This document shows positions 41,489 to 43,727 of a DNA stretch of 64,000 nt, one piece after another. Source of the stretch: Paracoccaceae bacterium (GTDB lineage: Bacteria; Pseudomonadota; Alphaproteobacteria; Rhodobacterales; Rhodobacteraceae); contig CANJQT010000003.1 in NCBI GenBank assembly GCA_947476475.1, positions 1 to 64,000 of the forward strand. Direction: 5' to 3'. Made by a program: the position numbers and the translations under genes. The number at the start of each line of letters is the position of its first letter. Position 1 is the stretch's first letter. The notes beneath the pieces were generated by a model. The model saw nothing but the letters and a program-made list of their open reading frames with translations, made no database searches and was not told the origin of the DNA.

Positions 41489-41788
41489 TCAGCATTTCAG
41501 GCGAAACCTTGCCTCGCCTGTATCGCCAGGCAGGCCGGTTATCATGCTGCCAGGAACCGGCTGGCACCCGGTTGTCGCCAGGATTGCTTGTTTCATCAGG
41601 TCAGGCACGGAGGCGCGTTCGGTGCGGGTCAGATAGCCAAGGCGAACCACTTCTGCACGGTCACCCTTTTGAAAAATGACGAAAGTGATGCCATCCAGCG
41701 TCACTTCGTGCCGGGCGGACCCAAAGAATTGCGGGGCGGGCGAGGCGCCGCAGGCGGTAAGCAAAAGGGGTAGGATCAAACGTTTCAT
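41489..41788 (-). CDS. Small lipoprotein
   Basis: The 99-residue protein has a short lipoprotein signal with lipobox 'LLLTACGAS' (Cys14), so it should be acylated and anchored in the envelope. The mature part has 'VTLDGITFVIFQKGDRAEVVRLGYL' and two further cysteines ('TTGCQP', C-terminal 'LKC') that may form a disulfide. No family is recognised. The upstream open frame to 41989 is not supported. Confidence 0.72.
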   Translation of the reverse strand: MKRLILPLLLTACGASPAPQFFGSARHEVTLDGITFVIFQKGDRAEVVRLGYLTRTERASVPDLMKQAILATTGCQPVPGSMITGLPGDTGEARFRLKC

Positions 41789-41960: not shown

Positions 41961-42290
41961 TTAGGCCGGCGACTGGTATTTGGCGGCAATCGCGCCCGCG
42001 GCCTTTTGCGCGGCCATAAATTCGTCTGAGGTGAAGGCCTGAACCGACTTGAGCCCGGTCACCGCCCCCGTCGCCCCGGCGACCATCAGGCAGGCCAGCA
42101 TCCGGGTCTGATCATCGGTGACCACGGTCATGGTGAAATCGTGATCACCGGTCGTCAGGTAGTAGCTTTCCATCTTGCCGCCCGCCGCCGCGACCAGCGC
42201 CCCGGTGGCCGCTGCCCGGTCGCTGGGCTTGGCGATCATGCCCTTCATGGCGGCAGCCGTATAGCTGCCGGTGATGATGTAACGTGCCAT
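41961..42290 (-). CDS. GYD domain protein
   Basis: The 109-residue protein is a GYD-domain member of the dimeric alpha/beta-barrel type. It shows 'MARYIITGSYTAAAMKGM', a central 'AAAGGKMESYYLTTGDHDFTMTVV' and a C-terminal 'VTGLKSVQAFTSDEFMAA'. The function of the family is unknown. The ATG at 42290 is preferred over an adjacent TTG, and GGGAGGG precedes it. The gene is followed on its 5' side by the large palindrome-rich spacer. Confidence 0.87.
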   Translation of the reverse strand: MARYIITGSYTAAAMKGMIAKPSDRAAATGALVAAAGGKMESYYLTTGDHDFTMTVVTDDQTRMLACLMVAGATGAVTGLKSVQAFTSDEFMAAQKAAGAIAAKYQSPA

Positions 42291-42429
42291 CAAAACAACC
42301 CTCCCAAAGATTCGGCCGCAGACCGCCCCCGGGCACCGCGCTTCGGCAGATCAGTCTGCGACGCGGGGCCGAGTGTAACACAGGTTTCGGGGTTCACGAA
42401 GGGCGGGCCGTTGGCGGGATCAGGGGAAG

Positions 42430-42445
42430 TGTCCGAATTCGGACA
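42430..42445. promoter_or_regulatory. 16-bp perfect palindrome beside an AT-rich segment
   Basis: TGTCCGAATTCGGACA is perfectly symmetric. It lies 140 bases upstream of the GYD gene start and is followed by a 65-base AT-rich stretch containing a second palindrome, AATTTTAAAATT (42477-42488). This fits an operator with a promoter, but no regulator is adjacent. Confidence 0.5.
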
Positions 42446-42518
42446 AATCACATTTTTGTTTTGGATCAATGGGTTGAATTTTAAAATTAACCAGATTTTT
42501 ACTGTTTGGACGGGCAGA

Positions 42519-42708
42519 GGACCGGATAGGGACGTGCCAGTGGCACGTTCCCCGGTCCGATTGGCCGAAGGCGCAAGCCGCAGGCCAAGGGGGTATCGGG
42601 TATCGCCGGACGGCAGTAAATCGGGGCGCGGCTGCATGGGGTGAGACCGGATCGGAAACGATCCGGTGGACCGTTTCCCGGTCGAACGCCCGCCCGCGCC
42701 GGGCGGGC
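42519..42708. repeat. Run of consecutive hairpins
   Basis: Five strong inverted repeats occur in 190 bases: GGACCGG/CCGGTCC (42519-42558) enclosing ACGTGCCA/TGGCACGT; TTGGCC/GGCCAA (42561-42588); ACCGGATCG-GAAA-CGATCCGGT (42646-42667); GACCG/CGGTC (42669-42683); and GCCCGCCCG/CGGGCGGGC (42688-42708). The GAAA loop on a nine-base stem is characteristic of folded RNA. Confidence 0.7.
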
Positions 42709-42725
42709 CGGGCGGCAGGCGCGGC

Positions 42726-42799
42726 GTAGGGCGGGGTTCACCCCGCCGATGCGCGGCGGGGTGCGGCGGGGGGGAGAGTCGGGGTGAACCCCGACCTAC
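42726..42799. repeat. REP doublet (REPIN) 1
   Basis: A REP unit GTAG plus hairpin GGCGGGGT-TC-ACCCCGCC (42726-42747) faces an inverted REP whose hairpin is GTCGGGGT-GA-ACCCCGAC ending in CTAC (42778-42799). The GTAG tetranucleotide at the base of the hairpin is the mark of REP sequences recognised by RAYT (TnpA-REP) transposases. Confidence 0.75.
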
Positions 42800-42820
42800 G
42801 GGGATCGAGGAACGCGCTTT

Positions 42821-42907
42821 GTAGGGTGCGCATTCATGCGCACCATCGAGCGGGCCGGGAGGTGTTTGGCGAGGGCGGGACGTGGTGCGCATGAATGCGC
42901 ACCCTAC
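42821..42907. repeat. REP doublet (REPIN) 2
   Basis: Positions 42821-42844 and 42884-42907 are exact reverse complements. Each is GTAG plus a nine-base-arm hairpin (GGTGCGCAT/ATGCGCACC) with the same TTC-centred loop seen in doublet 1. The two doublets share layout but differ in stem sequence. Confidence 0.78.
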
Positions 42908-43088
42908 GGCTGGCTGGGCAAGGATGACGCGGGTTCACGGCTTGACACGCCCGACTCCGGGCTTTTCCACGACCGCCGACATTGCTCGGCGCGAAAAACA
43001 CTTGTTCAGCTGGCAAAATCAGGCAGACTTGCCATCAAGTCGCAGGCCACTTCGGGAATGTCGGCTTGGACCCTTGGAGGTGCCTCCC

Positions 43089-43727
43089 ATGGAAGAGCGT
43101 TTTAGTCTCAAGGAGGCCTTTCGCGACAAAAGCACGGAAGAAGCGCGGGAACTCTATGATGAATGGGCGCTAAGTTACGAGCGCGAGAACCTTGTCAAGG
43201 GTTATCGAATTCCTTGGATGGGCGCTGCGATGATGGCGCGGCATCTGCCGACCGGGAATGGCCCGGTTCTGGATGCAGGCTGTGGCACGGGTTTGGTGGG
43301 CGAGGCGCTGAACGTCCTTGGCTATGGCCCCATTGTCGGCTGCGACCTATCGCCTGGCATGATGGCAAGGGCAGCAGAGCGCGACGCCTATGCCGATCTG
43401 GTGACCCAGGACATGGCGCAATCTTTTGCATGGCCCGACGCGTATTTTGCGGGGTTCATTTGCATTGGTTGCTATGGACCGGGCCATGCCCCACCCGGCA
43501 GCCTACGCGAGTTGGTTCGGGTGACGCGGCCCGGGGGTATCGGCGTTTTTTCCTTGCTTGACGCCAACCTTGACGCGCGGGGCTTTGGCGCGATCATACG
43601 GGATCTTACTGAGTCAGGTCAGTGGCGGATCGTGGAAAAAACCCGGACCTTCCGCCCTTATGTCGTAGATGAACCAGAACTGATGAGTAATCTCTTCGTC
43701 ATTGAGGTTCTTGACGGGGAGGTGTGA
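43089..43727 (+). CDS. Class I SAM-dependent methyltransferase
   Basis: The 212-residue protein has motif I 'VLDAGCGTGLVGEAL' and motif II around 'VGCDLSPGMMARA', then 'VTRPGGIGVFSL'. It should transfer a methyl group from S-adenosylmethionine to a small molecule; the acceptor is unknown. The start MEERFSLKEAF at 43089 is preceded by GGAGG (43077-43081). The longer frame upstream runs through the REP doublet. It is isolated between the palindrome spacer and lepA. Confidence 0.88.
   Translation: MEERFSLKEAFRDKSTEEARELYDEWALSYERENLVKGYRIPWMGAAMMARHLPTGNGPVLDAGCGTGLVGEALNVLGYGPIVGCDLSPGMMARAAERDAYADLVTQDMAQSFAWPDAYFAGFICIGCYGPGHAPPGSLRELVRVTRPGGIGVFSLLDANLDARGFGAIIRDLTESGQWRIVEKTRTFRPYVVDEPELMSNLFVIEVLDGEV

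Follow-up and report, generated by a model that had tools for sequence, protein, structure and literature searches.

The GTAG-tagged REP superfamily, as set out in the parts of Di Nocera et al. (2013, PMC3733652) available to us, combines an unpaired GTAG foot with a perfect stem of 8–9 bp and, in its TY type, a 2-nt loop. Its units occur as head-to-head homodimers and heterodimers with GTAG on the outside, the foot supplies stop codons, and in-frame REPs are known in other genes. RAYT genes are described there as flanked or overlapped at their ends by REPs, and the same parts do not mention REPs in the coding linker of a RAYT. In REPINs, two inverted REPs and their spacer form one unit (Bertels and Rainey 2011, PMC3116915, in the portion accessible to us). 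REPtrons with a TnpAREP of group 3, from partial coverage of PMC8266576 and PMC6006769, join an enzyme that matches the profile NF047646 and carries the HUH motif to flanking REPs with small perfect palindromes. Single-strand cutting guided by GTAG is known from other members (PMC8266576, in part).

The repeats analysed here share these features, including, with REPINs, a spacer that is partly common to another copy (on contig C109 of the same genome and in congener G002). They depart from REPINs in their very low copy number and in stems that differ between neighbouring doublets, and from group 3 REPtrons in that REPs stand in frame within RAYT genes, between helix α3 and the WQ motif. The REPs of the window, by which we mean the whole 64,000-nucleotide stretch analysed, are of an already known kind; REPs inside RAYT reading frames we have not found described. 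No mention of REPs within RAYT coding sequence was found in the passages and sections of the literature consulted.

Four hairpins lie between divergent ORFs with a GYD domain and a methyltransferase domain (Table 1). An earlier note on this DNA had read them as two inverted REP pairs, all GTAG-footed with TC at the loop, whose stems differ from one pair to the other. Our analysis bears this out and refines it: doublet A is itself a heterodimer, its GGCGGGGT and GTCGGGGT stems separated by two compensating base differences, and doublet B is a homodimer in which both units have the GGTGCGCAT stem. By sequence, all four stems are perfect over 8 or 9 bp. As the definition of the GTAG-REP superfamily requires, each stem follows an unpaired GTAG, is palindromic with a length within 5–13 bp, and closes on a short loop. 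Folded as single-stranded DNA, A1, A2, B1 and B2 gave z values of −3.5, −3.7, −5.7 and −5.7, respectively. In 100 dinucleotide-preserving shuffles of the entire window, the B pattern, present twice, never arose, and the A pattern, also present twice, appeared 0.01 times on average and at most once in any shuffle. As a number alone, 4 GTAG-footed hairpins are ordinary for this GC-rich window (vs a mean of 2.1 per tetranucleotide and a maximum of 9); what is unusual is their perfection, pairing and recurrence elsewhere. We conclude with good confidence that the four hairpins are GTAG-REP units, non-autonomous mobile repeats paired head to head in two REPIN-like doublets that belong to two stem subfamilies.

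Table 1. Positions in the window of the REP doublets and their neighbours
Feature	Position	Strand	Remark
GYD-domain ORF	41961–42293	−	PF08734
Further multi-copy intergenic repeats of the genus	42514–42597 and about 42635–42716		left of the REPs
REP unit A1	42726–42747	+	GTAG-GGCGGGGT-TC-ACCCCGCC; left half of head-to-head doublet A
Spacer of doublet A	42748–42777		30 nt
REP unit A2	42778–42799	−	GTAG-GTCGGGGT-TC-ACCCCGAC; right half of doublet A
REP unit B1	42821–42844	+	GTAG-GGTGCGCAT-TC-ATGCGCACC; left half of doublet B
Spacer of doublet B	42845–42883		39 nt
REP unit B2	42884–42907	−	same sequence as B1, inverted; right half of doublet B
Relic end of insertion sequence	42917–43066		shares about 77% identity with ends found at the termini of many contigs in the same genome
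Methyltransferase-domain ORF	43089–43727	+	PF13649

Hairpins of this kind might instead be RNA elements (terminators or stabilisers) or binding sites for host proteins, and not mobile repeats at all. The segment 42720–42912 does fold very stably as RNA (z −6.5), and REPs in the literature are frequently regarded as transcribed and as located 3′ of genes (PMC3733652, in part). The doublets here, however, sit between divergent ORFs, where a terminator role is unlikely; their stem sequence varies among congeners in the region, and the stems resemble those of RAYT-flanking REPs. We regard the RNA or protein-site reading as improbable.

Recurrence was assessed in the assembly of 3,896,924 bases in 192 contigs. 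At up to 3 mismatches, A-type units gave 17 matches, against 3 for a reversed-pattern control; about 10 are convincing by our judgement, comprising 6 perfect matches, one unit whose foot reads TTAG and three CGGGCTTCAGCCCG forms (contigs C38 and C41). Unit B gave 2 matches at the same threshold, both within the window, and is further represented by a copy with one extra base (C109:805–829) and, by eye, a degenerate copy on contig C95, after a RAYT gene piece described below. Repetition in the genome is therefore clear for the A type and weak for B alone, and the REP population is low-copy. On C109, A-type and B-type units again stand side by side, about 100 bp apart. Part of the doublet A spacer together with unit A2 (42756–42803) is 92% identical over 48 bp to C109, and part of the doublet B spacer with unit B2 (42853–42915) is 82% identical over 65 bp to congener G002:C10; this spacer homology is partial, and in these two comparisons we saw no event in which a REP pair had moved as a unit. 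At loci L006 (contig C46) and L008 (contig C172), A-type REPs are also placed between ORFs that we take to be ribosomal-protein- or RNA-polymerase-like and next to others that we take to be translation-factor-like.

The multi-copy intergenic repeats to the left of the doublets have several copies in congener G001 and in the same genome, where one adjoins an A-type REP on contig C7. An Rfam scan of 42400–43200 returned two matches, both sub-threshold; MIR9666, at 42818–42910 and overlapping doublet B, scored 26.8 bits against a gathering threshold of 88 and was rejected as a chance inverted-repeat similarity. On the right, the relic of an insertion sequence begins about 10 bp from the REPs, close enough to raise the question of whether the doublets represent the termini or remnants of a MITE belonging to another transposon such as this one. 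A similar end opens contig C95 without a GTAG hairpin, none is visible at the other contig ends shown, and REPs of both the A and B types adjoin and sit inside RAYT genes elsewhere, so that a MITE origin seems to us most implausible.

Consistent with the earlier note, an NF047646 search placed no RAYT gene in the window; the genome does have one, in broken form. A search with PF01797 gave 0 matches genome-wide, and the absence it implied was a false negative, as NF047646 finds the gene in two pieces. The larger, an ORF on contig C38 (locus L011) with PDHMH and WQRRFWEH motifs, covers profile positions 1–125 and scores 127.7 bits against the NF047646 cut-off of 80, vs 14.6 bits for PF01797, whose cut-off is 23. 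It thus exceeds the cut-off and carries the HUH motif, but the C-terminal part that would hold the catalytic tyrosine is not in one frame with it. A matching C-terminal piece (profile 123–146; 33 bits, below cut-off) lies on contig C95 beside the element end. Both pieces sit at contig ends, the C38 piece runs into an apparent element end close to the end of its contig, and by eye the two junctions have five bases in common. The gene has apparently been split by the insertion sequence, and since this RAYT is in two pieces, the REPs of the window are probably stranded. Inside the broken gene is a doublet of a related type, CGGGCTTC, and a B-like unit follows the C-terminal piece. The earlier note had taken single-copy hairpins and the lack of any RAYT gene as grounds for abandoning its reading; what we find is a multi-copy A type, two exact and further altered copies of B, and a broken RAYT. 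An NF047646 search of four congeners found two intact RAYTs in G003, a fragment in G002 and none in G001 or G004.

The same region was compared in three congeners. LepA of the window is 90.5% identical over its full length to a Paracoccus LepA from a plasmid collection, which points to an origin in Rhodobacterales. In G002 the region is bounded by the GYD gene on the left and by LepA on the right, and the REP doublet between them has a GGTGGGT stem, with only the right unit intact. G003 keeps LepA and an ORF matching 41604–41781, with a doublet of the GGTGCGTG stem in between; one unit of this doublet is identical to the REP beside L192, a RAYT of G003 itself. The left flanks of G002 and G003 are 73% identical over 158 columns, an alignment that stops 12 bases before the G003 doublet, and the right flanks show no significant alignment before LepA. 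In G001, where synteny is weak, 4.5 kb of the region held no GTAG hairpin, and none of the three congeners viewed (G001, G002 and G003) offered a clean empty site. Either the doublet has been renewed in place, or the intergenic slot has been hit repeatedly. Gene content also varies from the REP doublet to LepA, where the genome studied, G002 (L307) and G003 (L308) have different ORFs.

To place the two subfamilies among relatives, 295 genomes of the family were searched with NF047646. Matches at E ≤ 0.001 occurred in 107 of them, 87 over the cut-off, vs 30/295 with PF01797. The latter profile under-reports RAYTs, and statements that a genome has none can be wrong where they rest on it. Unit B, at no more than 1 mismatch, is present in 9/295 genomes, and 8 of these 9 have a RAYT match at E ≤ 0.001, vs 107/295 overall; G071 is the B-bearing genome lacking one. 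A search with the B 24-mer, its middle base left open, gave 120 loci, from which nine were taken and the genomes of eight of them, all but L032, were searched: 5/8 have a RAYT match at E ≤ 0.001, 3/8 over the cut-off, and the profile search found none in Mameliella and two Pantoea genomes. In the three genomes over the cut-off, exact B units flank the RAYT: Maritimibacter (L347), Cognatishimia (L348), where the other side of the gene is flanked by GTAGGCCGGGCTTCAGCCCGGC, and Sinisalibacter (L349), where the gene contains an in-frame stop. Close variants of B flank RAYTs L211 and L199. A-type units adjoin or sit inside RAYT genes, for example at L214, L232, L241, L246, L248, L251 and L268. Both subfamilies are therefore physically associated with RAYTs in relatives, and the proposal that two REP subfamilies lie side by side in the window proves right by stem.

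The B 24-mer, again with the middle base open, is common in Pantoea and Enterobacter, often paired with a different unit. In Pantoea SOD02 that partner is GTAGGGTCGCCATTTATGGCGACC, and a gene weakly matching the RAYT profile (L350) is flanked by units of the GTAGGGTCGCCATTTATGGCGACC type. A palindrome this short may owe its identity in different classes to convergence, or else to transfer. In Enterobacter ludwigii (L351, 104–1252), seven similar GTAG hairpins, six of them 174 bp apart, lie near another gene weakly matching RAYT.

Several of the RAYT genes named above contain REPs within their reading frames. We read 95 RAYT loci, 35 from the genus and family searches and 60 further ones, which gave 92 near-complete ORFs, some genomes contributing more than one, and set aside 5 partial ORFs. 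Loci L278–L282 had been chosen for their split profile matches, and all five proved to hold internal REPs, so counts are given with and without them. Internal GTAG-REPs are present in 42/92 near-complete ORFs (37/87 without L278–L282). Their location is the linker, which we define as the stretch between KxRFS and WQ..FWEH and call long above 22 residues: by this measure the linker is long in 50 ORFs and short in the other 42. Long linkers contain GTAG hairpins in 42/50 cases (37/45 without L278–L282) and short ones in 0/42, the remaining 8/50 long linkers lacking an intact hairpin. In total, 62 hairpins fall in 8,118 nt of linker, vs 1 in the 35,844 nt of remaining ORF. When all 256 tetranucleotides were tried as feet in the linkers, the mean was 1.7 hairpins; GTAG gave 62, TAGG 56 (the GTAG hairpins again, offset by one position) and the next 16. 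A search for GTAGG sites, which does not depend on base pairing, found 65 in long linkers, 57 of which start a perfect stem of at least 7 bp, compared with 0/17 in the rest of the ORFs and 0/2 in short linkers.

The internal units are arranged as 19 head-to-head doublets, 18 single minus units, 4 single plus units and 1 minus-plus pair. Reading phase is nearly uniform, with 23/24 plus units in one phase and 33/38 minus units likewise in a single phase. Genes with internal REPs look no more decayed than the others, as the HUH pattern is found in 42/42 with and 40/50 without them, and a strict tyrosine pattern in 34/42 and 35/50, respectively. Outside the family, 0/41 near-complete RAYT ORFs had internal REPs. 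Because only 3 of these 41 are flanked by GTAG/GTGG hairpins, the restriction of the trait to the family is weakly indicated.

The embedded REPs are diverse, with 16 distinct stem strings, and tend to match those outside the gene. The first 7 nt of the internal and flanking stems are the same in 28/32 comparisons and differ in 4/32; permutation gave a mean of 4.9 and a largest value of 13 in 5,000. By a coarser class the agreement is 28/30, though with only 2 well-supported independent pairs it may reflect shared ancestry.

The structure of E. coli TnpArep (PDB 4er8) offers a frame for the position of the insert. It aligns to L214 on either side of a 25-residue stretch that holds a REP doublet, and has 3 residues in its place. 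According to the parts of PMC8266576 available to us, the E. coli enzyme touches the REP with helix α3 and GTAG with residues such as Q95, and in group 3 helix α3 and the region downstream might bind REP stems. From this alignment, the REP-coded loop would sit between two REP-reading parts of the enzyme.

How the REPs came to lie in RAYT genes can be read in more than one way. On one reading, a single ancient insertion has been passed down within a clade, and internal and external copies have exchanged nothing since. A single clade of long-linker ORFs is not rejected (p-AU 0.222), the reading phase is nearly constant as noted, and a motif scan found a GRYAG-like spacer peptide common to 12 linkers. 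Such a history accounts less readily for the variety of internal stems and their agreement with the flanks, or for stems that switch between KPG- and NPG-coding within the group sharing that spacer; long- and short-linker RAYTs also intermix on the best tree, albeit with weak support. We consider purely inherited REPs possible, if somewhat doubtful. The internal-REP trait requires 19 changes on the best tree, vs a shuffled mean of 30, but the tree is poorly resolved, with 4 starred branches among 89 inner ones, and for this reason it does not distinguish one old insertion from repeated insertion.

The account we find simplest starts from the enzyme itself. A RAYT would recognise a REP in single-stranded DNA by binding its GTAG foot and hairpin, make a cut close by and insert REP copies; as an HUH/Y1 single-strand transposase of the kind described, it would have dispersed the A and B REPs. 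Within its own gene, the enzyme may have inserted or refreshed REPs at a loop that tolerates them, where they would be retained as long as the frame stayed open, or a single old insertion may have been renewed since.

A bolder suggestion, to which we attach a low probability, is that the RAYT gene is partly written in its own recognition element. A REP of the type served by the enzyme would code for the loop between the parts that contact REPs. Either the REP-coded peptide would help to set the stem that is recognised, in which case insertion or renewal of a REP in the loop would change stem specificity, or the embedded REP would let the RAYT regulate its own gene or message. A single step would then alter the type of REP and enzyme alike, and this would account for new REP subfamilies appearing next to each other, as they do in the window. 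RAYTs with their own in-frame REP, bearing 16 stem strings that mostly match those outside, bear on how REP subfamilies can diverge without losing the match to their enzyme, and are natural experiments on specificity, self-regulation and self-targeting.
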